Source: Gemmatimonadetes bacterium 2013_60CM_65_52 (GTDB lineage: Bacteria > Gemmatimonadota > Gemmatimonadetes > Gemmatimonadales > Gemmatimonadaceae). From it: a DNA stretch of 64,000 nt. The notes beneath the pieces were generated by a model. The model saw only the letters and a list, made by a program, of their open reading frames with translations. It was not told where the DNA came from and did not search any database. Numbering within the stretch: the stretch's first letter is position 1; every line of letters starts with the position of its first letter. Below, in pieces: positions 156 through 38,348 of this stretch. Location: NCBI GenBank assembly GCA_002215645.1, contig NGFI01000002.1, forward strand, positions 1 through 64,000. The letters are read 5' to 3'. The position numbers and the translations under genes are program-made.

Positions 156-199
156 TCCTTCTAAACTGCACATCCCCTCTCGTGAGCGCGAGGTGCGCC

Positions 200-733
200 G
201 TGCCTTGGTTGGAGACAGCTCCTATGGACGAGCGACTGCAGTTCATTCTGGATGCGCAGAGCGACCGCTCCACGATGGCGGAACTCTGCGCGCGGTACGG
301 CGTGAGTCGGCGGATCGGCTACAAGTGGGTCGCGCGCTATGCGGAGGAGGGAGAGCGCGGGCTGGCTGATCGCAGTCGCGTCCCACGTATGTGCCCGCAC
401 AAGACCCGCCCGGTGCTGGCCGACCTGCTCTGTGAGTTTCGCCGCACGCATCCAGATTGGGGCGCGCGCAACCTCCTGAAGGTGCTGCGCGGGCGGCATC
501 CGGAGATTGCAAACTGGCCCGCCGCGAGCACGACCGCCGATTTGCTGGCGCGTCGCGGCCTGGTGCGGAAACGGCGCCGTCATCGCCCGCATCAGCATCC
601 CGGCGTGGTGCCGATCGCGACGGCCGCCCCAAATGATCTGTGGACGGCGGATTTCAAAGGCCAGTTTCGCACCGGCAACGGCGCGTACTGTTACCCGCTC
701 ACGATTGCGGATCAGCACACCCGGTTTCCTTGA
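200..733 (+). pseudogene. Truncated IS481-family transposase
   Basis: This is the N-terminal half of an IS481-type DDE transposase. It begins VPWLETAPMDER (GTG start), which matches the usual MPWKET..MDER opening of the family. A helix-turn-helix follows (ELCARYGVSRRIGYKWVARY), then a linker rich in Arg, then the start of the rve integrase core (NDLWTADFKGQF, with the first catalytic Asp in TADFKG). The reading frame stops right after LTIADQHTRF, where a complete enzyme would continue for roughly another 150-200 residues with the remaining Asp and Glu. The rest of the catalytic core is absent downstream, so it cannot be active. It marks the accessory character of this end of the window. Confidence 0.85.
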
Positions 734-1373: not shown

Positions 1374-2399
1374 ATGCTTCCTCCGCCCCCGCGGCAGCGT
1401 AGTACGACTCAGCAGCCGCGCCGCCGCTTCGTATGGGAAACATTCGCGAACAACGAGCGCTTGGGTGAATTGTTTCTTGATCGGGCCACGATCTCACTCG
1501 ATCTCTCGCGTTACGACATTCTGAGTCATGACGGACTCTGCTGGATCCTTGCACTCGCGGCTTGGAGAACTTCAGGCGGCCTCGGCGCCACCTTTATAAG
1601 ACTTCCGAGCGATATCCGTGTTCTCTCATATCTCTCCACCATTCGCTTTCTAAAACGCTTCACGGAGGCTGGCGGCGCATATGAGAATGGTTACGTACTG
1701 GATGATGGCCGCATCGTCGACCTGAACATGCAGCGCACTGATCGCTTCGGCGAGCCAAGCGAGTACTCGCCCACCATCATTCAGCGAATAGAGGAACATC
1801 GCTGGGATCACGTACTGCATGCGCTCGACAGGTTTTTTGATACGGATCTAGCACGCGTGTTGGAGACAACTCTGATGAGCGAGACCATGGAGGCATCTCG
1901 CCCATTTCAGGCGGCCATCCGTGAATTGGTTATGAATGTCGCAATGCATGGCGGTAAGACGCCAGGCTCCGGTGTCGGCTACTGCTGCTATCGTCCGTTT
2001 CCGTCGACATACCGCGCGATTCGCTTTAGTTGTTCCGACATAGGGGTTGGCTTCCGTTCTTCGTTGCTTCGTCAATCGAGAGTGCAGAGTGGGCTTAGCG
2101 ATACCGATGCAATTCTCTCGGCTCTCTTGTTCCGCTTTGACAACCCACAAGAGGGCGTAATAGGACTCTATCCAGCACTCGGCTTTCTGCGCTCATTCAA
2201 TGGGCGCTTGTCTATTCGCAGCGGAGAGGCTCTTGTCTCGCTTGACCTGACGTCAGCCAACACGCGTACACTCTTTGATGACTGCTATGAAGACGAGCCT
2301 ACGCTCGTTTGGCTACGAAAGCTCTGTCATTCGTACATAGCTCCTGCGGTTGGCGGCACTCATGTAATCGTGGACCTCCAGCTGCCGAATCGCCTGTGA
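1374..2399 (+). CDS. GHKL-type ATPase with N-terminal STAS-like region
   Basis: A 341-aa soluble protein. Residues about 40-110 (LDLSRYDILSHDGLCWIL...) look like a STAS-type alpha/beta module. Residues about 180-240 carry the hallmarks of a GHKL (HSP90/histidine-kinase-like) ATPase: an N-box ELVMNVAMHGG (Glu, Asn and His conserved) and a G1 box CSDIGVGF (Asp and two Gly binding adenine). No histidine-phosphotransfer or transmembrane segment is present, so it is not a classical sensor kinase. It is closer to SpoIIAB/RsbW-like or MORC/HSP90-like ATPases used as switches. Its stop overlaps the GTG of the next gene (GTGA), so the three genes 1374-5375 should be one transcript. I infer a regulatory NTPase for the two PRTase partners; the biochemical role is unknown. 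Confidence 0.75.
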   Translation: MLPPPPRQRSTTQQPRRRFVWETFANNERLGELFLDRATISLDLSRYDILSHDGLCWILALAAWRTSGGLGATFIRLPSDIRVLSYLSTIRFLKRFTEAGGAYENGYVLDDGRIVDLNMQRTDRFGEPSEYSPTIIQRIEEHRWDHVLHALDRFFDTDLARVLETTLMSETMEASRPFQAAIRELVMNVAMHGGKTPGSGVGYCCYRPFPSTYRAIRFSCSDIGVGFRSSLLRQSRVQSGLSDTDAILSALLFRFDNPQEGVIGLYPALGFLRSFNGRLSIRSGEALVSLDLTSANTRTLFDDCYEDEPTLVWLRKLCHSYIAPAVGGTHVIVDLQLPNRL

Positions 2400-3442
2400 T
2401 TGTAATCGAGCCTCTAAAGACTAGGCTTCAGCAACTGGTCGCGGCCGGTGCGGCCAACCCGCTTAGCGTAGCCCGGGGGCGCTTTGGCTCCCAAACCGAC
2501 TATTCCTTGGTTGTTTCGCAAGCACAGCAGGTCACGGAGGGGCAGGATGTAATCATCGACCTGACACCGTTCGATCGCATCGGACAAGCGATGGTACTGG
2601 ACGGCATCCTCGGACCACTCGCTCTTGGGCGGAGGACAACCTTTCTTATCCGCGCTGGCGGTGCGAATGAAGCCATTGTGGGTACCTCTTTGCCAGGACT
2701 TGCATGCATCGCACTGTACGACGACTCCGGCAAGCTCCTTCGTGTCAAGTCACCCGTTCAATCGACCGAAAGGTATGCGCCGGTTATTGATGCGTTGACC
2801 GGCTATGATGCGCTTCGACCGCTCCACGCAAAGCTTTCCGCTGACATACTGCAGGCACTTGCGGCTCCTACCATCACACATGCGCGGGACTCCGATCCTG
2901 CCGATCAAGTCGAGCGCGACGGCCGACTTTATTTTCCCGTCGGCAATCGTATGCTCGTGACGTGCTATCTCAATACCAAGCATCTTCTGGCCGTTCCGGC
3001 CAATCTTTTTGCTGTCGCATATGAAGCAACACGCGCGCTGTACGATAGCTTCTCGTTCGCAGCCGTCCGTGCTTCTCCATATGACCTCGTAATCACACCA
3101 AGCAACACGGCCCTTCTAATTGCAAGCGGGGTGCACGCTCTTTCATCTCTACCAGTCGCGGTTGTTGACTCGTTGGGCCCGTTGGCGAATCGCGGCGTCG
3201 CGGCACTGAACACTTCGTTGGACGTTGCAGGTAAGCGGACCTGCCTCATCGTTGACGTCTTGGCTACAGGCGCGGAGATCGATCGCACCATTCAGTACCT
3301 CGATTACCGGCGAGCTGATATCCGTCGTGTCATTGTCTGCTTCGATTGGGGAGCGGGGCGGCCGCTGCTCTGCGATGAATCCAAAATGACCGTCCTATCA
3401 CGTCTCAACGGCGGAGGCGAATATGTCTACCGCTCGAAATAG
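2396..3442 (+). CDS. PRTase-fold protein of the HATPase/HD operon
   Basis: GTG start overlapping the previous stop by 4 bases; 348 aa. The first about 100 residues (EGQDVIIDLTPFDRIGQAM...) again look STAS-like or a divergent alpha/beta region. The C-terminal half has a type I phosphoribosyltransferase layout: a hydrophobic strand DLVITPSNTALLIASG, a central strand VAVVDSLGP, and a PRPP-loop-like LIVDVLATGAEID (residues about 280-295). The usual DD of the loop is VD here. PRTases bind PRPP or nucleotides, and some families in bacterial conflict systems have lost the salvage role. Coupling to an ATPase and an HD enzyme, with no purine or pyrimidine genes nearby, argues against ordinary salvage. 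Translation continues into the next gene, which overlaps it by 20 bases. Confidence 0.65.
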   Translation: MIVIEPLKTRLQQLVAAGAANPLSVARGRFGSQTDYSLVVSQAQQVTEGQDVIIDLTPFDRIGQAMVLDGILGPLALGRRTTFLIRAGGANEAIVGTSLPGLACIALYDDSGKLLRVKSPVQSTERYAPVIDALTGYDALRPLHAKLSADILQALAAPTITHARDSDPADQVERDGRLYFPVGNRMLVTCYLNTKHLLAVPANLFAVAYEATRALYDSFSFAAVRASPYDLVITPSNTALLIASGVHALSSLPVAVVDSLGPLANRGVAALNTSLDVAGKRTCLIVDVLATGAEIDRTIQYLDYRRADIRRVIVCFDWGAGRPLLCDESKMTVLSRLNGGGEYVYRSK

Positions 3443-5375
3443 AGATGCATATAGCGACAAGTTTCTTGCATTAGCGGCCGGGCTACATCTATCAGAAGTC
3501 GGTGGAGACTTATTCGATCCGTTGGATGAGCTGTCGCGCTGTCTTAAAGCGCACCAGTTTATTTGGGCTCTTGCCGAAGAAGAGATCTTTACTGAACACG
3601 GTACGCCCCACTCATACTTTGTTCTTGAGTATTTGCTGAGGCTGGAGCCAATCGCCAAGTGGTCTCCTTATGAGGGTGTTGTTCTGGCGATGGCCGCATT
3701 GGTCCATGATATTGGAATGCAGTTCAACCGCTGGGGCCAGCTTGCCGCGGACGATTCCGGAACGGAGGTCATCGCAGAAGTTCTTCTACTGCGGAAGCCG
3801 CCGCGAGATGTCGATGAAATTCGGGAAGAGCACATTCCCCTCGGCAGCGCATTGATTTCAGCCGAGCTCGATCGTACGTCCTCTTGGGCTTCTCAATTTG
3901 CCTTCTGTTCAGGCACGGATCACGCGCTCTCCGTCCTGGGGCTCGCACATACAGTCGCGTTCGCTCATTCCGACGGAATCGGTTGGGAGGCATTGCGCAA
4001 TGCCAGCGCTGACTACGTCAACGACCGGTCGTGGCCTGGACCGCCGCGGCAGACGATTCGCCCTCGCCTGATGGCGGGTTTTTTTCGCCTAGCGGATGAA
4101 CTCCATTGCGACTTCACACGCGCGCCGGACATCGCCCAACTGTGGCAGGACAGAGTGCCTGAGAAGTCACGCTCCCATTGGGTCGCGGCGGCCTGCACGC
4201 ACTCGATGGATCTAACCGTTATCTCAGCAGAGACTCGACGCGTGGACGCCACACTTCGCTGGCGCAAACCTCGCAATATCACCGCGCAGATGAGGGAGGA
4301 TATTACTCGGCTACTCCTCAGATCGCGCATGGAGAAGCTCACAGACGCGTTTCGCGCCATCAATGAGATGTTTGAAGTGTCGAGACACGGCCACCTGAGG
4401 ATTTACCCACAGACTCATTTCGAGCCGGACCCTGTTGAGGAATTTACAATAGATATCAATGACCGCCTGCGGACGCTCCTCACCGAGCAAGCCCTGGTAG
4501 CTAGCCCGGAGGGCGATCCAAGGGGCGTTACGGACGCGCCAATCACCGGGGCTGCCCTACGCGCCAAGGTCGCGGTGTTCGTCACGGATATGCCGTCGCC
4601 TCTTAGCGACCTCGAAGAGTCGCTCGCCGCGACGGGGCAACTGACATCTGATCTCGATATTGAGAGGATGACTGATGCGTCGCAACCTTTGGACGTGGCT
4701 ACCGGGCCATCAACCGCCATTGAGGGAACAGGGCCTTATCCGGAAACTCTTACCGATGACAACCTGGAAACCACAATGAGGGAGTGGTTGAACACTCACA
4801 GCGAACCGGGACACTGGCGCGTCTCTAGGGGTGCCCACACCAACAGATTGGTTCGGTTACGCGCATTGATGGCGGACCGTGATCTCCTGATTGCAATTAC
4901 ACATCGTGTCCGGCGGATTGCAGAGACTCGGCAGGTAGCCTCGATCTTGGGCGTCGGCACTAGTTGTATTCCAATCGTTGCTCGGCTGTCCTTACAGCTA
5001 TCGCTTCCAGTTACTTTCACCACGCACGAAACAACGGAAGGTGCCCGAGGCTACCAGGGGATAGTTGACCGAACGCCGATTATCGACTTCGGTGGAGAAG
5101 GTAAAGTGTTAATCCTTGATGATCTCGTGGCGCAGGGTGTCACGGCCCACAATCTCATCGAGCGTCTAGAGGAACACGGAGTCGACCCCAGTCGCATCGT
5201 CTATGTCGCGCTCTTTCATTTGAGCTCCGTTCCATTGATTCCGAACCCCGGCGTCCCATTGTTGAGTATCTGCGATGTGCCCGAGGTATATTATGTGGCG
5301 GCGTCGGACGTGCCCAGCAAGTGCGCGCTTTGCATTCGTGGCGATCGGATCGTGAACGAGGTCGATGTTTGGTAG
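3423..5375 (+). CDS. HD-domain phosphohydrolase fused to a PRTase domain
   Basis: A 650-aa, two-enzyme protein. The N-terminal half is an HD domain: His63 (GTPHSYF), the His95-Asp96 doublet (LVHDIGM), a later REEHIPLGSALI and a distal Asp in LADELHCDF, consistent with a metal-dependent phosphohydrolase. The architecture recalls the HD families that I remember being described in bacterial conflict systems. The C-terminal residues about 490-620 form a PRTase: GVGTSCIPIVARL, then VLILDDLVAQGVTAHN, a canonical PRPP loop with two Asp. A ribosome site (GGAGG) precedes the ATG inside the upstream gene. No membrane segments. A plausible job is cutting or modifying a nucleotide under control of the upstream ATPase; the substrate cannot be deduced. 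Confidence 0.75.
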   Translation: MSTARNRDAYSDKFLALAAGLHLSEVGGDLFDPLDELSRCLKAHQFIWALAEEEIFTEHGTPHSYFVLEYLLRLEPIAKWSPYEGVVLAMAALVHDIGMQFNRWGQLAADDSGTEVIAEVLLLRKPPRDVDEIREEHIPLGSALISAELDRTSSWASQFAFCSGTDHALSVLGLAHTVAFAHSDGIGWEALRNASADYVNDRSWPGPPRQTIRPRLMAGFFRLADELHCDFTRAPDIAQLWQDRVPEKSRSHWVAAACTHSMDLTVISAETRRVDATLRWRKPRNITAQMREDITRLLLRSRMEKLTDAFRAINEMFEVSRHGHLRIYPQTHFEPDPVEEFTIDINDRLRTLLTEQALVASPEGDPRGVTDAPITGAALRAKVAVFVTDMPSPLSDLEESLAATGQLTSDLDIERMTDASQPLDVATGPSTAIEGTGPYPETLTDDNLETTMREWLNTHSEPGHWRVSRGAHTNRLVRLRALMADRDLLIAITHRVRRIAETRQVASILGVGTSCIPIVARLSLQLSLPVTFTTHETTEGARGYQGIVDRTPIIDFGGEGKVLILDDLVAQGVTAHNLIERLEEHGVDPSRIVYVALFHLSSVPLIPNPGVPLLSICDVPEVYYVAASDVPSKCALCIRGDRIVNEVDVW

Positions 5376-8154: not shown

Positions 8155-8328
8155 ATGCTCACGATCGAGGAATACAAGAAGCTGCTTGGCGACCGGCTCA
8201 CCGAGCTTACGGACACCGAGATTCAGATCTGGTATGAATGCCACACCACGTTCGTGGCTTTTGTGCTCAAGTGTTGGCTCGGATCGCGTGGGAAGCGGCA
8301 GGAAAGTTGTGATAAACTGGCGCCATGA
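8155..8328 (+). CDS. 57-aa protein translationally coupled to the serine recombinase
   Basis: ATG at 8155 preceded by AGGATAGGTGG. The product begins MLTIEEYKKLLGDRLTEL and ends in a basic Cys-containing tail. It is mostly helical, with no signal or membrane segment. Its TGA overlaps the recombinase ATG (ATGA), so recombinase translation is probably coupled to it. Small acidic helical proteins in this position could be directionality factors or simple translational leaders; nothing in the sequence decides. I do not recognise a family. Confidence 0.65.
   Translation: MLTIEEYKKLLGDRLTELTDTEIQIWYECHTTFVAFVLKCWLGSRGKRQESCDKLAP
8310..8318 (+). promoter_or_regulatory. Extended -10-like box 6 nt before the recombinase ATG
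   Basis: TGATAAACT (TGn plus TAAACT) ends exactly 6 bases before the ATG at 8325. Two cargo genes downstream show the same spacing, so a leaderless recombinase transcript separate from the coupled one is plausible. No good -35 element is visible. Confidence 0.4.
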
Positions 8329-10127
8329 CCGCAGACAACACCATCTACGCCATGGGATACGCCCGCGTCAGCACGGCAAAGCAGGCCGTCGAGAGTGAAA
8401 GCCTGGATATTCAAGCTGACCGCATCGAGCGGCACATTATCGGCCATGGCTGGACAGTCAAACCCATGGACGGTGTCCTCCAAGAACCTTTCACCGGCAC
8501 CACTGATGAGCGTCCGGTCTACCAGGAAGCCCTCCGATACATCAGGAAGAACCGAGGCACGATTCGCTATTTCGTGGTCATGACCATCGATCGTTTTTCA
8601 CGTGAAGGAGCATTCAAGTACCAGCAGATGAAGGCGGAGCTTGCTGCCGAAGGTGTCGAGCTCCGAGACATCAGCGGCGTGATTCAACCACGCGTGAACA
8701 GCCTCCAACATCTCGGGTTCAAGTACGGCTGGAGCGAAACAAGTCCGAGCGACGTCGGTGAGGTCGTGCTTGCCGAAACCGCGAGCCATGAACGCTCGCG
8801 GATTCTGACAAGGCTCGTCGAGGCCCAGATTAGGCTCACGCAAGGCGGCTACCACCTCGGGCCCGCGAACGACGGATACGTCGTCAAGCGAGTGTTTGTT
8901 GACGGGAAGAAGAAGCTGGCGCAGTTCCCAGATCCGGAGCGCGCCGAGTTCGTCCGTGTAATGTTCAGGATGCGAGCCGAAGGGACGACCTCAGATGAGG
9001 AGATCGTCAAGCATCTCAACGGCCTCGGGTTTCGTACGAAGCCGTTCAACAGGTGGAACCGAGCGAAGACGGTGGTCGTAGGGCACAAACCAGGGATGCC
9101 ACTCACGGTGAAGCACTTTCAGTGTCTCATCCAACGGCCGGCCTATTGCGGCATCACCGTCCGCAGATGGACGCACGGAAAGGCTGTTCGGGCAAGGGGC
9201 GGAGAGGCACTGATTCCAATCGCACAGTTCAACGCTGCCAACCGTGGAAGGGTGTTCATCGAAGAACACGAGGATGGCTCCGTGCGCATCTCCTATAACC
9301 ACATGCCGAGCCGGCAACCTCCCAAACGGCACAAGTTCTCGCTACGCTGGCCGCTCAAGAATGTCGTTGCGTGCCCACGCTGCAGAAAACCACTCTTCGC
9401 AAGTGCGAGTCGTGGCAAATCTGGGCACTACTTCACCGCCTATCACTGCTCGCGGGGACACGCGCGATACAGTGTACCGCAAGCCAAGCTTGAGCAGGCT
9501 TTCTCGACCTTCGTGGCGACATTGCACTTCGAGCCGAAGTTCTTCGCCTGTTTTGAAACGCTGCTCGTCGATGCCTTTCACGACGCCCAAGCGCAGTGGA
9601 CGAACGAGAGGCGGACAAGTGCATCAAAGATCGCCACGCTCGAAGAGCGCAAGACCCAATTGGCTCTGGCCTTTGCCGAGACCACATCGGCGAGCGTTCG
9701 AAAGGTGCTCGAACAACAGGTGACCGCTCTAGACGATTCCATTTCAGAGGTGGGGCAGCAGCACCAAGCATTCGGCTCCGCTGAGGGTGACGTCCAGACC
9801 TTCCTCACCTATGCCAGAACGCTATTGGAACACCCCCAAAAGATCCTTGACAACATTGAGCATCTTCGAGAACAGCTTGCGATTTATGGTCTGTTCTTCG
9901 AGCGTCCACCGACCTTCGATGATATCGTGTTTGGAACACCCCTCCTACGGCTAACCTTCGCCCTCTCCCGCCAGGTCGCCATGCAACAATCTCGGGCTGT
10001 GCACAGACAAAGTCTGGATTGGAACACTCTACACCAAGAGATCGAGCGGTGGAAGGAAGCGGAGTGGGCCATTGATGCAATCCTGAGGAGACTTCATCTA
10101 CAGGACTCCGCGTTTGCAGCGGCCTGA
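8325..10127 (+). CDS. Large serine recombinase (site-specific integrase)
   Basis: 600 aa. The N-terminal resolvase domain carries YARVSTAKQAVESESLDIQ (nucleophilic Ser at about residue 11), the TIDRFSREGAFKY segment and the DVGEVVLAETASHERSRILTR helix. The recombinase domain follows (GYVVKRVFVDG, then AYCGITVRRW). A zinc-ribbon region comes next with CPRCRKPLF and YHCSRGH at about residues 350-380. A coiled-coil region (residues about 415-500) precedes the C-terminus. All catalytic-domain parts are present, so it appears intact. It should integrate or excise DNA at short att sites and is the likely driver of the island. Its last about 42 codons plus downstream DNA are duplicated at 13.55 kb. 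Confidence 0.92.
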   Translation: MTADNTIYAMGYARVSTAKQAVESESLDIQADRIERHIIGHGWTVKPMDGVLQEPFTGTTDERPVYQEALRYIRKNRGTIRYFVVMTIDRFSREGAFKYQQMKAELAAEGVELRDISGVIQPRVNSLQHLGFKYGWSETSPSDVGEVVLAETASHERSRILTRLVEAQIRLTQGGYHLGPANDGYVVKRVFVDGKKKLAQFPDPERAEFVRVMFRMRAEGTTSDEEIVKHLNGLGFRTKPFNRWNRAKTVVVGHKPGMPLTVKHFQCLIQRPAYCGITVRRWTHGKAVRARGGEALIPIAQFNAANRGRVFIEEHEDGSVRISYNHMPSRQPPKRHKFSLRWPLKNVVACPRCRKPLFASASRGKSGHYFTAYHCSRGHARYSVPQAKLEQAFSTFVATLHFEPKFFACFETLLVDAFHDAQAQWTNERRTSASKIATLEERKTQLALAFAETTSASVRKVLEQQVTALDDSISEVGQQHQAFGSAEGDVQTFLTYARTLLEHPQKILDNIEHLREQLAIYGLFFERPPTFDDIVFGTPLLRLTFALSRQVAMQQSRAVHRQSLDWNTLHQEIERWKEAEWAIDAILRRLHLQDSAFAAA

Positions 10128-10248: not shown

Positions 10249-11462
10249 ATGTCCAATCACTTCAGACACAACCATTACGTGCCGGAATGGTACCAGAAAG
10301 GATTCATCCTTCCGAACCAAAAGGATAACGAGCTTTTCTACCTAGACTCGAGCCCAGGTTTCTTTGTAGATGGCGTGCCATCATTCATCCGAAGCGCTCC
10401 GTCAAACGGCAGGGTTTTCGGCATTGCTTTGCCGACACTGACCTCTACACTCGCTCCTTTGGCGGCGTGCCTTCTACGGAAATCGAACGGCTATTCTTCG
10501 GCACAATAGACAACAACGGGAAAAGAGCTGTTACCGCATTCAGTTTTTTTGATCATCAATCCTTTGATCAGGATCACTTTCGTCACCTGATGTTGTACAT
10601 GAGTACACAGAAGCTTCGCACCCCAAAAGGACTCGGTTGGCTAGCCGACCAACTGACAACGACGGATCACCACCGCGTGCTCGCGGCTCTGCTCCGCTTC
10701 CAGCAGATACACTGTGCCATTTGGACGGAAGCAGTCTGGCAAATTGCGGACGCGTCGCAGAGCGATACCAAATTCATCATCTCTGATCACCCGGTCACCG
10801 TCTACAATCGTACGTGTGGGCCGGGCTCCGGTTGGTGCCGTGGAAATAGCGATCCTGACATCAGTCAGAATGGGACACATACCTACTTTCCGCTTTCCTG
10901 GGACAAGGTTCTTATCCTGACGAACCTTTCGTGGGTGAGAAACCCATATCAAAAGGCCATCGCACTGCGTCCAAATGCAAACCCCTGGCGAAATGCGATC
11001 ATCAACTTCACCGAGATTCAGATACTTCGCCATCTTTCAGAAGACGAGGTTCTGCAAATCAATTTCATTACAAAGGCACGCTCTCTGCGATATATCGCCG
11101 CGGCGAAGGAAGAATGGCTGTATCCTGAACGCTTTGTTTCAAAATCAGATTGGGCGAAGTATGGCAACGGTTACTTATTCATGCCGGATCCGCGCTCAAT
11201 CCACCTTGGTGGAACAGTCATGTGGGGAGGCGGGCCCGGTCCTGGAGGCGCAGTGGACACCTACGGACGTCCGCCATGGGATCCCGATTTCGAAAAGGAA
11301 GGCACGAGCGAAGGCGAGACTCTTCAGCGCTTCCAAGGGGAGTTCGCACACATGGTTGGCCCTGATCGGCGAGGACGCGGGTTCAGCTTTGGCCAACTAG
11401 ATAAGGAGCGTGACAGCGACGACTACCACGCCTACCACCTAGGGCTGTTCAAGAAGAAATAA
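10249..11462 (+). pseudogene. DUF4238 protein gene with an internal frameshift
   Basis: The first frame (10249-10509) opens MSNHFRHNHYVPEWYQKGFI, a typical DUF4238 start (HYVPxxYxxxF). Family-like sequence then continues in another frame, read from about 10383 as KRSVKRQGFRHCFADTDLYT and on to FGTIDNNGKRAV, through to the stop at 11462. The change requires loss of one base (or gain of two) near 10375-10385. The second half includes the KFIISDHPVTVYN motif expected of the family (SDxPV). A Gly/Pro-rich segment lies near residue 320. DUF4238 proteins are uncharacterised and often seen in defence islands. A sequencing error, a genuine mutation or recoding could explain the break; there is no obvious slippery run. 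Confidence 0.75.
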
Positions 11463-12558: not shown

Positions 12559-13491
12559 GTGGCAAGTGCATTGGTCGTGAATTTCCCATGGGCATCGAAG
12601 TCGCCGATCGCTCATCTGCTACCCAGCATCGGCCCTGCAATAGAGCGCATCGCTCCGGAACGCGTCGCCGAACTTGAGCGCATTACGTGCGGGGTGCAGC
12701 TGCAAATCACTGATACTCCGAGATGGATTTGTCAGGCGTCGCCAGGCTGGAAGCTGATTCAACTAAGTACACGTGTCATAGAAGTTGCATGGGCCTTTGC
12801 CTACGCTTATTTCGTTCTCTATAAGTGCGTTTTTGAAGGTACACAGCCAACGAAGGACGTCGTAGATCTTTCCGCGAGAATGGATGTCCAGCCTGCGCTG
12901 CGATTGCTAGAATGGGCCTTGGATGAGTTGATCGTAGGGCCTGGACACAACTGGCCGGCCGACGTACCGTCGCCCTCAGACCCGCCCTTGTTTGCCTCGC
13001 GTGAACATGTCGCGGATGAGATCGCGCTTTGTGCCGTGGGATTCTTTCTCCACCACGAGCTGGCACACACATATCTGACGCTTTCTGTTGGAGCAACGGC
13101 TATCGAGCACGAACGCGCATGTGATGCAGCTGCGGCTGAGTGGATTCTTGGAGCCGATGGGATCACAGACTTGGAGATGCAGAAACGTGGTCTGGGCGTG
13201 GCTGTGGCGCTATTGCTCATCACTGCCAAAGGCGTGCACAGTGGCCAACACGACGACGTGACTCATCCGATCGATTTTGAAAGGCTCGTCGATATACTTC
13301 TTGCGAAGGTGCCTCGCGAGCAACGTGCTGTTTGGGGAATGGTTGCTGGCGTCTTGTCACTGCATATGACCCGTCGCGACATCCTGCCTCCTGACGGCCA
13401 CTTTGACGATTTTGTGGATGCAGTTCTGTCACAGCGTGAGGTTCTCCGCGCTCACCTTCTAGACAGTTCCACCAATACCACAAAGCCCTGA
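12559..13491 (+). CDS. Zinc metallopeptidase, Lit/U49-like
   Basis: 310 aa with a GTG start. The central motif HHELAH (HExxH; residues about 165-170) and, some 20 residues on, EHERACDAAAAEW supply two His plus a distal acidic ligand of a gluzincin-type zinc site. Overall length and mid-protein location resemble peptidase family U49 (E. coli Lit, a phage-exclusion protease that cleaves EF-Tu), but the match rests on motif and size only. No signal peptide, so it should act in the cytoplasm. It sits behind the Schlafen-like gene in the mobile cargo cassette; I infer a possible abortive-infection role. Confidence 0.6.
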   Translation: MASALVVNFPWASKSPIAHLLPSIGPAIERIAPERVAELERITCGVQLQITDTPRWICQASPGWKLIQLSTRVIEVAWAFAYAYFVLYKCVFEGTQPTKDVVDLSARMDVQPALRLLEWALDELIVGPGHNWPADVPSPSDPPLFASREHVADEIALCAVGFFLHHELAHTYLTLSVGATAIEHERACDAAAAEWILGADGITDLEMQKRGLGVAVALLLITAKGVHSGQHDDVTHPIDFERLVDILLAKVPREQRAVWGMVAGVLSLHMTRRDILPPDGHFDDFVDAVLSQREVLRAHLLDSSTNTTKP

Positions 13492-25408: not shown

Positions 25409-26644
25409 ATGAGCGACAATCCGCACGACCGCATCACCTACATAGGCAAGACGAACCACCGCAACGCCGGCATTCTCTTCGGCATACGAGAGAGGGACCG
25501 GCGTTCGCATTTCTATATCGTAGGAAAGACGGGCACCGGAAAGTCCCATCTCATCCGGAACATGATCACGCAGGACATTGCGGCGGGAAGTGGCTGCGCC
25601 CTCTTCGATCCTCACGGGGACCTCGTAGCGAGCGTTCGAGAGCTCGTACCGCCAGAACGAGCAGTCGATCTCCTCTACCTCGATCTCCCGGACCCTGCCC
25701 TCCATTGGCGATTTAACCCATTTGCAGGCGTGAAGAAGGACAATCGCGCGCTCGCTGCGGCTGGATTGGTAGAGGTGTTCAAGAAGCTCTGGCCGGATGA
25801 TTGGGGTCCAAGGCTCGAGCACCTCCTCAGGAACGTCGTCTTCACCCTTCTCGAGATCCCCGGTGGCACTCTCGCGGACATCCCGGCGCTCCTCACCGAT
25901 CGCGATCACCGCCGTGGCGTGGTGGCGCGTCTCGAGAATCCGGTTGTCCGAGACTTCTGGTTCGAGGAGTACGAGAAATACTCGCCTGCCTTCAGGGCGG
26001 TGATCGTAGCACCGCTTCAGAACAAGCTCGGTGCGCTGCTCACAGACCCCACCCTGCACCGCTTCCTTACCGAGCGAGGCAATCCCATCGACCTTCGCCG
26101 CGTCATGGATGACGGGAAGATCCTTCTCGTAAACCTGGACAAGGGCAAGATCGGCGAAGGGCCCGCCATGACCATTGGCTCCTTCCTTCTCTCGCATATC
26201 GCTCTTGCCGGCATCTCGCGCAGCGCGGTTCCCGAGGAGGAGCGGTGGGACTTCTTCGTCTACTTGGATGAATTCCAGACCTTCACGACGCACTCGCTCG
26301 CGAACATGCTCTCAGAGCTTCGCAAGTATCGGGTGTCGCTCGTCCTCGCTCATCAGCATCTCTCTCAGCTTGAGCCAGAAATTCGCGATGCGGTGTTCGG
26401 GAACGCCGGAAGCCTGCTTGCCTTTCGGGTAGGAGCGGACGATGCACGGTACTTAGCGCGGGAGTTCGCGCCGGTGTTCGCAGCGGCGGATCTGGTCGGG
26501 CTGCCTCGATACCATCTGTATCTCCGTCTTCAGATAGACGGCGAGCAGTCCAAGCCCTTTTCAGCGAGCACTCTCTCTGAGACCTCCGAGCGACCTCTTG
26601 CGCTTGAAATAGGCGTTCATACCTTCCGGCTTGGACAGTTGTAA
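25409..26644 (+). CDS. VirD4/TraG-HerA-type P-loop ATPase
   Basis: 411 aa. Walker A FYIVGKTGTGKSHLIRNM (residues about 35-50), ALFDPHGDLV, Walker B FFVYLDEFQTF (about 280-290) and a VLAHQHLSQLEPEIRDAV stretch typical of TraG/TraD coupling-type ATPases. Unlike conjugative VirD4 it has no N-terminal membrane anchor and begins just before the nucleotide-binding site. Compared with the 1027-aa paralogue at 32184 it lacks the roughly 350-residue N-terminal domain and the nuclease/HTH C-terminus. It is followed by a truncated relative of the membrane protein that precedes the paralogue. Confidence 0.85.
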   Translation: MSDNPHDRITYIGKTNHRNAGILFGIRERDRRSHFYIVGKTGTGKSHLIRNMITQDIAAGSGCALFDPHGDLVASVRELVPPERAVDLLYLDLPDPALHWRFNPFAGVKKDNRALAAAGLVEVFKKLWPDDWGPRLEHLLRNVVFTLLEIPGGTLADIPALLTDRDHRRGVVARLENPVVRDFWFEEYEKYSPAFRAVIVAPLQNKLGALLTDPTLHRFLTERGNPIDLRRVMDDGKILLVNLDKGKIGEGPAMTIGSFLLSHIALAGISRSAVPEEERWDFFVYLDEFQTFTTHSLANMLSELRKYRVSLVLAHQHLSQLEPEIRDAVFGNAGSLLAFRVGADDARYLAREFAPVFAAADLVGLPRYHLYLRLQIDGEQSKPFSASTLSETSERPLALEIGVHTFRLGQL

Positions 26645-31506: not shown

Positions 31507-32160
31507 ATGCCCGCCACGAGCGACATCGTCTCCCATTGGCATCATTCCGTAGAAGGACTGAGCACCTCTTCGCTCGATTTCTACACCGCCCTTGAGCGCG
31601 CGCTGAAGAGCAAGGAAGCTCCAGTGCGCACGGAGCGCATTCAACTTGGAGAGGGCGGCGTCCTGTCTGCCAAGCGCACCTATCTGCGTGTTTCCTACGA
31701 GCGCCTCGTCTTCGATATCGGTGCGACACCGTTCGGCAAGGATTTCTTCTTCAGCTGGTGGCTCGGCAGACGCACGCCGGACTTCGGCGCCATGGTGGGC
31801 TGTGCGGTTCTCATCGCTCTTCCGGTCGTGCTCTTGATATTCATGAAAGTCGCTGGTGCGTTCGTCGGCCTCATTCTCTTTGCCGGCATTCTGGCGGGTG
31901 CCTTCCTGTACATGCAGCAGGGAGGCCGAATCGGAGACACCAGCATGGAAGACATCGTGCTCGCGGTGCCCATCCTTGGTCCGCTCTACCTGCGCTTCTT
32001 CAAACCGGTGACGTACTACTCAGAGGACACGCGCATCATGTTTGAGGAAACGGTCCATCGCGTAGTCAAGGATGTCGTTGGTGGTATCCTCACGGTGAAC
32101 AACCTGCGGCCACTCACGCCGGAAGAGGCGCTGCCGAAAGACCACAAGGCAGGACGATAG
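31507..32160 (+). CDS. Membrane partner of the ATPase-nuclease protein
   Basis: 217 aa. The N-terminal soluble region (SSLDFYTALERALKSKEAPV, then YERLVFDIGATPFGKDFFFS) precedes two hydrophobic helices at residues about 98-140 (MVGCAVLIALPVVLLIFMKV, then GLILFAGILAGAFLY), and a C-terminal soluble tail follows. No family recognised. It is 23 bases upstream of the 1027-aa ATPase and certainly co-transcribed. A truncated relative at 26680 sits next to the other VirD4-like ATPase, so the pairing was duplicated. A membrane anchor for the ATPase is a reasonable inference. Confidence 0.65.
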   Translation: MPATSDIVSHWHHSVEGLSTSSLDFYTALERALKSKEAPVRTERIQLGEGGVLSAKRTYLRVSYERLVFDIGATPFGKDFFFSWWLGRRTPDFGAMVGCAVLIALPVVLLIFMKVAGAFVGLILFAGILAGAFLYMQQGGRIGDTSMEDIVLAVPILGPLYLRFFKPVTYYSEDTRIMFEETVHRVVKDVVGGILTVNNLRPLTPEEALPKDHKAGR

Positions 32161-32183
32161 CCGCCCGAGTCCGGCCACTCCGA

Positions 32184-35100
32184 ATGCAGCAGGACGTCCT
32201 GCTTAGCCGTTTCGACGAATGGGAGACGCGCATGCGGGCGTGTCCGCCTTGGCCCGAGCGCGTCGAGCTTGAGCCGCCGTTCGAGCCGCTCGTCGCCGAA
32301 CGCCGGGTGCGAGTGGGCATTGTGGACGACGCACGGTCTCCCGGCCTTCTTGATCGGCTCTTCGGCAAAAGCTCTGAAAGACCGACGGGCGAGGTAGCTA
32401 GCGAAGAGCTCATCGCCTCGCCGCGCGTGAGTCGAGGCCCGATTTCGGAGCTTCAACTCCTCCTGCCGGAAGGGTTCGTGATCAAGACTGGCATGGCCAG
32501 CCGCCTACTAGCTTCGCTCCAGAACCTCGAGGACCCGCTCGGTTTTGAGCTTGTGGGGACGTCGGAGCATGTGGTGACCCAGCTCTCGTGCTCCGTAAGC
32601 GATCGGCCCACGGTCCAAGCTTCACTCCGTGCCTTCTTCCCAGAGCTGAAGGTGCGTGAGCGAGCAGACTATCTACGCACTGAATGGGAGGGCGAGGAGC
32701 GCTACGGCGTCATCCTTGGTTTTGGGCTTCGTGAGCGGGTGTTCAGACAGCTCGCCACCGAAGACAAGCTGGACTTTGACCCCCTCATCGGTGTCATCGG
32801 CTGCCTCAACGCGCTTTCCGAGGGCGAGCTTGCTCTTGTTCAGGTTCTATTTCATCCCGCAAGACGGCCGTGGGGACGTGAACTCGAGGACTTCGCCTCG
32901 AAGATCGACGATGTCGATCACGTCCTTCCACAGGTTCGAGAGAAGTTCTCCGATCCCATGTACGCTGCGGCGATCCGCGTGGCTGCGCTCGGGCGACGCG
33001 AGGAGGAAGCTGTCAGCCGTGCAAACAGTCTAGCGGCCGCTATTCACGCAGCCACTCGCTCGAAGTACAACGAGCTCGAATTGCTATCACCGGCCGATCA
33101 CTCCTTTGAGGTGGAAGCAGAAGATATTCTCACTAGGGAGGCGCATCGGAGCGGCATGCTCCTCTCTCTTCGTGAACTGCTCACCCTTGTCCATCCGCCG
33201 TCTGCTGCGGTCCGTTCCGAACGCTTGACTCGGCAGCGTGGACGAACGAAGGCAGCTCCTCTTGGGACGGTCGGGCATGAACTCGTGCTGGGCGTCAACG
33301 AGCACGATGGCGAGGAGCGAGTGGTCTCACTCTCCGTCTCTGAGCGCCTCCGCCACACCTACGTGATCGGCGCGTCTGGCACGGGCAAGAGTACGCTCCT
33401 CCTCTCGATGGCCATCCAGGACATCGAAGCCGGGAACGGCTTCGCAGTCCTCGATCCGCACGGAGATCTCGTCGATGACATCCTCGCGCGTATTCCTCCG
33501 GAGCGTGTCCGCGATGTGATCCTCTTTGATCCGGCCGATGAAGCGTTTCCGATAGGATTCAACATCCTTTCCGCGCATTCGGAGCTTGAGAAGACGCTTC
33601 TGTCCTCAGACCTCGTGGCCGTCTTTCGCCGTCTCTCGACGACCTTCGGCGATCAGATGGTGACGGTCCTCGGGAATGCAATCCTCGCGTTCCTCGAATC
33701 GACTGAAGGCGGGACCCTGCTTGATCTGCGGAATTTCTTCGTGGACCGGGCCTTCCGCGCTCGTTTCCTCGAGACCGTTCAAGATCCAGAGGTGATTCAC
33801 TACTGGGAGCAGGAGTTTCCGCTTCTCAAAGGCTCCCCGCAGGCGCCTCTCCTTACTCGCCTCAACACTTTCCTGCGGCCGAAGCTCATTCGGCACATGG
33901 TAGTGCAGCGAGAGGATCGGTTGAACCTCCGCACCATCATGGACGGCAAGAAGATCCTCCTTGCTAGACTCTCTCACGGAGCGATCGGTGAGGAGAACGC
34001 GCACCTCCTTGGCTCACTCCTCGTGGCGAAGATCGCGCAGGCAGCCATGAGCCGGCAGGATGAAGATGCGGCCAGGCGCGTGCCGTTCTTTCTCTATATC
34101 GACGAATTCCACCACTTCGTCACACCCTCCATCTCCTCCATTCTCTCGGGCGCGCGAAAGTACGGACTCGGTCTCGTCTTGGCTCATCAGGAGATGAGAC
34201 AGCTCAAAGCGAGAAGCGAAGAGGTCATGAGCGCTGTCCTCGGGAACGCGTTCACCCGCATCGCCTTCCGGTTGGGAGACCAGGACGCTCGCACGCTTGC
34301 TGATGGACTCTCCTTCTTCGAGGCGAGTGATCTCCAGAACCTCGGCATCGGAGAGGCCATCGCACGCATCGAACGACCGGACTTCGATTTTAATCTGCGT
34401 ACCCGCCCTGTTCACGCCATGAGCGACAGGTTCGCCTCGGCGCGCCGCGAGACCGTGCTTGATGCCTCGCGGGCGGCCTATGGAACGCCGAAGGCGGAGG
34501 TGGAGACCAGGCTGCAATCGGCTCGAGAAGGATCGACGCAACGCAGCCAGAGCTCACCAAGCCCCACTGTGCCATCCACCTCCATTGTGGCCGACGCCAC
34601 GCCGGTGAAGCGACAGACCAAAGCGCCGCTTCCAGGCAGGGGCGGTCCGCAGCACAAGTACATGCAATCTCTGGTGAAGAAGCTCGCCGAGGATCGAGGC
34701 TTCGGGGTCTCGCTCGAGAAGACGGTCCTCGATGGCCACGGATACGTGGATGTCGCGCTTGAGCGAGAGGGGATGTCCGTCGCCTGCGAAATCTCCGTGA
34801 CGACTCGCGTGGCTCACGAAATCGGGAACCTCTCTAAGTGCCTTGCCGCCGGTTTCAACTATGCCGTCCTCATCTCGACGGATGAACGTGCGCTCGCCGC
34901 GGCCTCTGGTGGATTCGCCCCACCGGATGAGCGCATCCGTCTCCTGACGCCCGACGCCCTCATCGCCTTCCTCGACGAACTATCAGGGCACGTCCCGAAG
35001 GCAGCGCCTCCAAGAAAGCAGGGCAATCAGGGCAAGCTCGCTTTCGAGAGACCCGCGGATGGCGAGCAGTCGAAACGTCTCCTCGGCACAGCGGAAGCGG

Positions 35101-35267
35101 CGGATTATATCGGCCTAGCCGTTCAGACGCTCGCCAAGATGCGAGTCTCCGGAGAATCGCCGCCCTTCTACAAACTCGGCCGCCAAGTCCTCTACGACCG
35201 TTCTGACTTGGACGAATGGGTTTCCGCGCGTAAGCGGCGCTCGACTTCGGACAGCGGTCGTTCGTAA
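32184..35267 (+). CDS. VirD4/HerA ATPase fused to PD-(D/E)XK-like and excisionase-type HTH domains
   Basis: 1027 aa. Residues 1-350: uncharacterised N-terminal domain (LQLLLPEGFVIKTG...). Residues about 380-770: TraG/HerA ATPase with Walker A GASGTGKSTL (near 396), FAVLDPHGDLVDDI, Walker B FFLYIDEFHHF (near 640) and VLAHQEMRQLK. Then a Ser/Pro linker. Residues about 825-930: restriction-endonuclease-like fold, GHGYVDVALEREGMSVACEI containing Asp and Glu in a PD-(D/E)XK-like order, although the expected Lys after the Glu is replaced (EIS). Residues about 965-1017: a MerR/HTH_17 unit (LGTAEAADYIGLAVQTLAKM, YKLGRQVLYDRSDLDEWV) as in excisionases. No relaxase nearby, so DNA transfer is not the obvious role. 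Confidence 0.85.
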   Translation: MQQDVLLSRFDEWETRMRACPPWPERVELEPPFEPLVAERRVRVGIVDDARSPGLLDRLFGKSSERPTGEVASEELIASPRVSRGPISELQLLLPEGFVIKTGMASRLLASLQNLEDPLGFELVGTSEHVVTQLSCSVSDRPTVQASLRAFFPELKVRERADYLRTEWEGEERYGVILGFGLRERVFRQLATEDKLDFDPLIGVIGCLNALSEGELALVQVLFHPARRPWGRELEDFASKIDDVDHVLPQVREKFSDPMYAAAIRVAALGRREEEAVSRANSLAAAIHAATRSKYNELELLSPADHSFEVEAEDILTREAHRSGMLLSLRELLTLVHPPSAAVRSERLTRQRGRTKAAPLGTVGHELVLGVNEHDGEERVVSLSVSERLRHTYVIGASGTGKSTLLLSMAIQDIEAGNGFAVLDPHGDLVDDILARIPPERVRDVILFDPADEAFPIGFNILSAHSELEKTLLSSDLVAVFRRLSTTFGDQMVTVLGNAILAFLESTEGGTLLDLRNFFVDRAFRARFLETVQDPEVIHYWEQEFPLLKGSPQAPLLTRLNTFLRPKLIRHMVVQREDRLNLRTIMDGKKILLARLSHGAIGEENAHLLGSLLVAKIAQAAMSRQDEDAARRVPFFLYIDEFHHFVTPSISSILSGARKYGLGLVLAHQEMRQLKARSEEVMSAVLGNAFTRIAFRLGDQDARTLADGLSFFEASDLQNLGIGEAIARIERPDFDFNLRTRPVHAMSDRFASARRETVLDASRAAYGTPKAEVETRLQSAREGSTQRSQSSPSPTVPSTSIVADATPVKRQTKAPLPGRGGPQHKYMQSLVKKLAEDRGFGVSLEKTVLDGHGYVDVALEREGMSVACEISVTTRVAHEIGNLSKCLAAGFNYAVLISTDERALAAASGGFAPPDERIRLLTPDALIAFLDELSGHVPKAAPPRKQGNQGKLAFERPADGEQSKRLLGTAEAADYIGLAVQTLAKMRVSGESPPFYKLGRQVLYDRSDLDEWVSARKRRSTSDSGRS

Positions 35268-37145: not shown

Positions 37146-38348
37146 TCAAACGCGGAAAATCTTGTTGTACCCGAGGGTGCCGAGTGCCGTAGTGCGGGCG
37201 TCGATTTCCTTCGTACCCCATTTCGTCGCGAGGCGCAGCGTGTCATCCAGCGGGACGCCCGCTTTCACATAGGCCTTTTGCTTCGGGAGGAAAGGCTTGT
37301 TGCCAACATCATCGTTGGTCGGATGGTCAAGCAACAGCAGGTTCCCCAAGCGCCCAACGCCAGGCTCCACCGAAGTACCCGCCGGAGGCTTCTCCGGGGA
37401 TACGTGCTCGATTGTCATCTTCGTATAGTCCACAGGAGCTCCGGAACGCAAATGCTCGTCGATGCGCTGCAGGAGGTACTGCACGAGTGCCTTCTGCTTG
37501 GTATTTGTCGACAGGAACTCAAGTTGTTCGATGCCCGCCTGGAATTCCGCTTCGCTCGGGACGCGCGCCTTTAGCTTGGCCCGGAAGGATTTCAGCGCGT
37601 CGGCACGCTTCTGGCTGCTCAACACGCCTGTCAATTCTTGAGCCGCTGCGGCATACATCTTGGCCGTTCCACCGCCAGTCCGCTGCGCAGTCAACGCGGT
37701 GAACTGCACATGGAAGTTCTCCATGCTGCGTAGGCAGGCTTGCGTCTGGCTCAGACTGATCTGGCCGCCGCGATAGACTCGCAACAGTGCGAGTATCATC
37801 GGTAGTGGTTGACCGACGCGGAACAATGCGAGGGCCTTCAGCGACGCAAATAGCGTCGCTTCCTGCCTTGACCATTTGCCGCTAGTCGGCTCCAGTATCA
37901 TGCGGTACAACTCAGAATCTGAACTGAGGCCCGCGAGGTACTCGTCGGCGTTCGTCTTCTTGACTGAGTTCCGTATGGTGCGAAAAAGCTTCTCTCTTCC
38001 CGCGTAGGCGTTACGCGAAATCCACGAGTGATAGATGAAGCTGTTGATGTCGATGTCGGCGGCTGATTCGTCGAACCGTTCCAAGAGCTTGTTCCACTTA
38101 TCTCGTGTCGCATCGACTCCCTTGTTCATCGGCTTTAACAATCGTGTCAACAGGTTTGTCACCAGGTCAGCGATGCCCAGGTCCTTGCCTCGCGTATTCA
38201 AGGTTTCGAAGATGACGTATGCTTCATCTTCGGATTGCAGCTCGATGGCTATCAGATGCAGTCGCAAGACGTTAGCGCGCAAACCAAGGAGTTTTGCGCG
38301 AAACGCGTCGGGGACATCCGCTTTCTTGTCGAAGATCGGGGGTGGCAT
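37146..38348 (-). pseudogene. C-terminal part of a split DUF262/DUF1524 (GmrSD-like) gene
   Basis: 400 codons. It opens within the DUF262 domain: EDEAYVIFETLNTRGKDLGI is the closing motif of that domain. It then runs into the helical linker and the DUF1524 nuclease (MTIEHVSPEKP, GRLGNLLLLDHPTND; the HNH-like His and Asn). The matching N-terminal part lies at 41259-41841 on the same strand. GmrSD-type proteins are modification-dependent restriction enzymes that cut phage DNA with glucosylated hydroxymethylcytosine. The fragment has an in-frame ATG at 38348 but no ribosome site, so independent function is doubtful. Confidence 0.8.

Follow-up and report, generated by a model that had tools for sequence, protein, structure and literature searches.

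A three-gene operon coupling a STAS-GHKL protein, a PRTase-like protein and an HD-CE protein, and its possible role in bacterial conflict

Introduction

HD-CE domains were reportedly proposed by Nicastro et al. in 2023 as nucleotide-targeting immune effectors that are also coupled to HSP90-like ATPases, and the PRTase-CE domain is said to have been named alongside them by the same authors. A different kind of immune switch is found in vapKSC, a three-gene operon with a STAS-GHKL kinase gene in first position, which lies near other immune genes in 36% of cases and protects against a phage (PMC13373217). By the published model, VapK responds to single-stranded DNA and phosphorylates a STAS antitoxin, leading to toxin release (PMC13373217). 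Both components have precedents, as HD-CE effectors and as STAS-GHKL immune kinases; among the described systems that we compared, a set that leaves the content of the founding HD-CE paper outside the comparison, none joins the two.

Here we describe an operon, A-B-C, that carries both. Like vapKSC, in which the kinase controls the effector, it has three genes, and by architecture alone A resembles VapK and CapK in having a STAS and a SpoIIAB-like GHKL domain, although CapK adds an HTH. The partners are different: VapS and CapS belong to the STAS proteins and have a conserved Ser/Thr, whereas B is PRTase-like and no such site was found in it, and in place of a VapC-like PIN nuclease or a STAS-wHTH repressor the third gene encodes an HD-CE domain with a PRTase-like domain. 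The N-terminal domain of C is a member of PF24391, as in HD-CE effectors, but here it is fused to the PRTase-like domain, and the operon supplies a predicted STAS-GHKL kinase and another PRTase-like protein as separate gene products. The CloA dNTPase of Clover is likewise an HD-superfamily nucleotide hydrolase, restrained by a partner and by nucleotide signals (PMC12265719), an arrangement that is putative for our operon; CloB, however, is a nucleotidyltransferase, and Clover has no GHKL, STAS or PRTase component (PMC12265719). ShosTA/PsyrTA and the DprA-PRTase pairs also feature a PRTase-fold protein, in the context of defence or of toxin-antitoxin modules, but with a DprA-like partner and without HD or GHKL domains. 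Finally, SpoIIAA/SpoIIAB and RsbV/RsbW consist of the STAS and anti-sigma kinase modules that are fused in A, whereas the trio has no sigma factor and, in each of the three homologues of A, the acceptor position of the STAS-like domain is occupied by Asp. None of the three proteins A, B and C matched a PADLOC 2.0 model significantly.

Organisation of the operon

The features of the window (the whole stretch of 64,000 nucleotides that was analysed) and of a second trio are listed in Table 1. The initial annotation had described three genes coupled by overlaps of 4 and 20 bases, and both overlaps are confirmed on the ORF coordinates. The first (GTGA) holds the GTG that we take as the start of B, a TTG at 2309 being merely the first mechanical start of that frame. 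In the second, B reads YVYRSK-stop and C reads MSxxRN. Open frames of these lengths are not expected by chance at the local base composition (~4e-6 for A, ~3e-6 for B and ~5e-11 for C). The G+C content of the trio is 0.563, compared with 0.605 for the window.

Table 1 Coordinates of the operon, of neighbouring genes in the window and of the trio in genome G072 (locus L007; positions of that locus, same gene order).
Feature	Position	Strand	Length or score
Gene A: STAS-like N-terminus (~1479-1688) and SpoIIAB/RsbW-type GHKL domain (~1764-2396)	1374-2399	+	341 aa
Gene B: alpha/beta N-terminal domain and PRTase-like C-terminal domain (~3011-3343)	2396-3442	+	348 aa
Gene C: HD-CE domain (~3588-4241) and PRTase-like domain (~4809-5342)	3423-5375	+	650 aa
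B/C dual-coding overlap	3423-3442	+	20 bases
IS481-type transposase, truncated (HTH and LZ_Tnp_IS481, first part of rve only), shortly upstream of the operon	182-733	+	
Large serine recombinase	8325-10127	+	
Lit-type phage-exclusion protease (Peptidase U49), ~7 kb downstream	12559-13491	+	Pfam E 6e-25; PADLOC Lit E 2e-55
GmrSD-type restriction protein, N-terminal part apparently missing	37146-38348	-	
L007 gene A	14216-13230		
L007 gene B	13229-12180		
L007 gene C	ending at 10520		

The domain calls made for the three genes are also supported, with GHKL and STAS-like domains in A, a PRTase-like domain in B and HD-CE and PRTase domains in C, as set out below.

The trio recurs in other genomes

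A tblastn-type search with C over 298 genomes of the phylum located a second trio (L007) in G072, a genome of the same family but a different genus. A third trio, its genes again in A-B-C order, is present in an Atribacterota MAG (L078); it was located among GTDB genomes by scanning with a degenerate DNA pattern, HGxxHS - gap - HDxGMQ, designed from the HD motifs of C. The proteins are highly diverged, with identities to the window proteins (A/B/C) of 31/29/28% for the Atribacterota trio and ~29/26/29% for the G072 trio (27/22/26% in the three-way alignment). The gene junctions are kept at this distance: A and B overlap or directly abut, and the B/C overlap is 20 bases in the window, 20 in the Atribacterota locus, where it is identical to that of the window at 17/20 bases, and 14 in G072, when C is started at the ATG corresponding in the alignment to the C starts of the other loci. 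The initial annotation had allowed for adjacency in this genome alone, but the three genes stand next to each other in three genomes from two phyla and form a genuine unit.

The distribution is sparse. B was found in 2/179 genomes of the family, a C profile finds just those two among 394 genomes of the class, and the trio is present in 1/50 Atribacterota genomes. None was seen in 229 Pseudomonadota, in 171 genomes of the phylum of a Roseiflexaceae MAG or, with the B profile, in 118 genomes of the phylum of a Nitrospirae MAG, all three being weak negatives because sensitivity is limited at such divergence. There were no tblastn matches to A, B or C among plasmids or to A, the sole query, among phages, and scans of viral and genome collections with single proteins and two-row profiles were likewise without a match. 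Four viral matches to the HD DNA pattern do not match the C profile and look like chance, and a match in genome G261 comes from a PyrE-like gene with housekeeping surroundings and not from the trio. The patchy distribution and the lower G+C content fit a trio that behaves like a horizontally moving unit.

A resembles SpoIIAB/RsbW-type GHKL proteins and has a STAS-like N-terminus

The window copy of A has no direct Pfam match. A profile search gave a weak match of its N-terminus to the STAS structure 4hyl (E 0.03), and alignment to that structure places an Asp directly ahead of the conserved Gly in all three homologues, at what we take to be the position of the phosphorylated Ser in SpoIIAA. 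Structure prediction, proposed by the initial annotation for all three proteins, gave models of A and B from two-row alignments, both of low confidence (pLDDT 48 and 43, respectively). For the GHKL half of A, the best structural matches in VIA-align are the anti-sigma kinases SpoIIAB, RsbW and UsfX (Z 6.3-7.7, a group that includes one response-regulator fusion), followed by histidine kinases with Z below 5. For B, Foldseek and VIA returned Rossmann-like ties, from which no interpretation was drawn.

The N-box and G1 box that had been read in A are indeed present and complete in the window (E184/N188 and D222-G224-G226), and the N-box and G1 DxGxG are also complete in the Atribacterota homologue. 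In the G072 homologue the N-box Glu is replaced by Asn and the N-box His is also missing, so kinase activity would not be universal among A homologues.

C has an intact HD-CE site and both PRTase-like domains are degenerate

In Pfam, C scores against HD-CE (PF24391) with E 6.9e-19 and against Pribosyltran with E 6e-6, and the HD-CE scores of the three C proteins are 69, 48 and 68 bits against a curated cut-off of 27. H59, H63, H95, D96, H182 and D225, to which we assign the role of HD metal ligands by analogy, are invariant in the three homologues, as are R222, E226, H252 and W253; the HD residues read in C at the outset are thereby borne out. Because all the HD-type ligands are invariant, C is likely a working phosphohydrolase.

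The PRTase-like domains present another picture. B of the window has no direct Pfam match, and its Atribacterota homologue matches Pribosyltran (E 8e-6). The initial annotation took VDVLATGAEI of B as a PRPP loop, but this loop is non-canonical: across the three homologues it reads V/E/E, then D/E/D, then an invariant TGxEID, with Glu at the site where PRPP enzymes have Thr or Ser, and in the window one acidic residue of the PRPP signature is lost. The PRTase half of C, which is closest to UMP synthase/OPRT and PurR, keeps the DD pair, and the final loop Thr is present in the window protein only (T/E/A); an invariant CxxC closes the domain. Neither B nor C matches PRTase-CE (PF24390) at E up to 10, and genome-wide that profile gives only sub-threshold matches, elsewhere than the trio. 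The N-terminal domain of B could not be established as a STAS domain and shows no similarity to A; no conserved Ser/Thr acceptor was found in it across the three homologues, residue 63 being G/G/S.

Since the PRPP loops of B and C are degenerate, these domains are unlikely to work as ordinary enzymes of salvage. The window genes scanned include no purine or pyrimidine genes, as the initial annotation had stated, and its contrary case of complete salvage active sites with metabolic neighbours is not what we see: the PRPP sites are incomplete and the window has no such neighbours. A diverged nucleotide-salvage operon could draw on the fact that nucleotide metabolism employs PRTase as well as HD folds, but both loops have partly lost the PRPP signature and purine and pyrimidine genes are absent, which argues against salvage. 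The added kinase switch and the absence of the trio from nearly all relatives count against it further, and we consider it highly improbable and strongly disfavour it. Likewise, with intact HD metal ligands and degenerate PRTase loops, it is less likely that the trio makes a nucleotide than that it hydrolyses one.

The same residues bear on a second alternative, a small-molecule signalling or stress pathway without an antiviral role, in which B and C would produce or alter a nucleotide-like metabolite, its removal would fall to the HD domain and A would read its level. Ter-associated PRTases and PurR-like sensing are the natural comparisons. In its favour are two PRTase-like domains together with an HD hydrolase, the UMP synthase/OPRT- and PurR-like half of C with its DD pair, and a housekeeping STAS-GHKL paralogue in a core operon of most relatives. 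It sits poorly with the invariant TGxE of B in place of the Thr/Ser of PRPP enzymes, with the loss of the loop Thr from C in two of three homologues, with the lack of a conserved catalytic loop, and with the sporadic distribution and the absence of metabolic neighbours from the window. We regard it as rather unlikely.

Each of the three trios has mobile or defence-type genes nearby

The neighbourhood had been described as rich in mobile elements, in agreement with the IS481 remnant and the serine recombinase in the window. Besides the Lit-type protease, the region downstream of the operon contains a RuvC-like gene, an XRE regulator, a DUF4238 gene and a Schlafen AlbA_2 gene, and farther along the window are TraG/HerA-like ATPases and then the GmrSD-type protein. 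Transposases of the IS110 type flank the G072 trio, whose surroundings also include a NERD-domain protein and an SNF2 helicase; IS110 and some of the other names were assigned by eye. At the Atribacterota locus in its extended form (L134), a Fic protein lies ~1.7 kb downstream of the trio and an MNT-type protein adjoins a HEPN-like partner. In a raw count, defence-type or mobile genes are present near 3/3 trio loci, and the search for the trio in other genomes, as initially suggested, finds it again near defence-type genes.

These surroundings, i.e. the IS481 remnant and serine recombinase here and IS110 in G072, together with the translational coupling of the three genes, would also suit a toxin-antitoxin or element-maintenance module of a mobile region, in which C, or else B, would be a toxin restrained by its partners, with no specific antiviral role. 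The PRTase proteins ShosT and PsyrT are known toxins, DprA-PRTase pairs have been described (PMC9122126), and the Atribacterota C has a marginal match to ShosT (E 0.008). That match is near chance, however, and three large coupled genes with an ATPase switch suggest regulated activation and not simple addiction; we judge such a module unlikely.

Two other features of the window are recorded here. The DUF4238 gene is split across overlapping frames (10249-10509 and 10467-11462) and is possibly frameshifted. The two TraG/HerA-like coupling ATPases (25409-26644 and 31507-35267), the larger of which has HTH_17 and nSTAND-like matches, are close to Ig/FG-GAP and Tle1-like phospholipase genes, and this is possibly a conjugative or toxin-delivery region.

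A possible mechanism

Our tentative reading, to which we give slightly less than an even chance, is that the trio is a conflict operon, probably anti-phage and abortive or growth-arresting, in which a VapK/CapK-like switch controls an HD-CE effector. By analogy with VapK and CapK, A would be the sensor and switch, responding to an infection cue (single-stranded DNA for VapK/CapK) and shifting a B-C complex into another state through ATP binding or phosphorylation. B may be a regulatory subunit that restrains C, and, once C is released, its HD-CE domain would cleave a nucleotide phosphate bond and starve phage replication. For the PRTase-like domains, a role as pockets that sense a nucleotide or PRPP-like ligand, in the manner of PurR, is more likely than one in salvage. 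The idea that a GHKL-type ATPase gates HD-CE gains from the repeated fusion of HD-CE to GHKL/HSP90-like ATPases at other loci (L044, L046 and L047).

A more specific proposal, which we hold to be rather unlikely as it stands, is a new immune architecture in which the STAS-GHKL kinase gates B-C, the degenerate PRTases serve as nucleotide/PRPP sensor and lock, and HD-CE is an executioner nucleotidase. If the operon does act in conflict, two recent themes of immunity, STAS-GHKL kinase switches such as VapK and CapK and nucleotide-hydrolysing HD effectors, would be united in one operon, and PRTase folds would gain a regulatory role in immunity. Two invariant signatures, HGxxHS...HDxGMQ of C and TGxEID of B, and the dual-coding overlap provide easy handles for searches and tests.

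Other HD-CE and STAS-GHKL loci

Several loci that came up alongside the trio are different systems. Matches to HD-CE in three genera (L041, L042 and L043) belong to a four-gene cassette with a DNA cytosine methyltransferase, a ~355-aa HD-CE protein, an ORC-CDC6-like ATPase (PF24389) and a 313-395-aa protein without a Pfam match; in a Pseudomonadota genome (L135, 234-3774), an XRE-family regulator stands ahead of an HD-CE protein with fused WD40 repeats. These were rejected as instances of the trio. The A profile also matches, in 92/99 relatives, a STAS-GHKL gene of a separate type (~297 aa), encoded in an operon with a PfkB-type kinase, a STAS-like protein and a PLP enzyme (order PfkB, STAS-GHKL, STAS-like, PLP; L156 1890-5875, i.e. 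G000:C2 ~244.4-248.4 kb, and L157), which looks like a conserved housekeeping partner-switch. Finally, at L044 (4780-10859) a protein with HD-CE and HATPase_c_3 domains lies between an E1/ThiF-like protein and a large P-loop ATPase (flanks assigned by eye), making it a candidate for another conflict locus.
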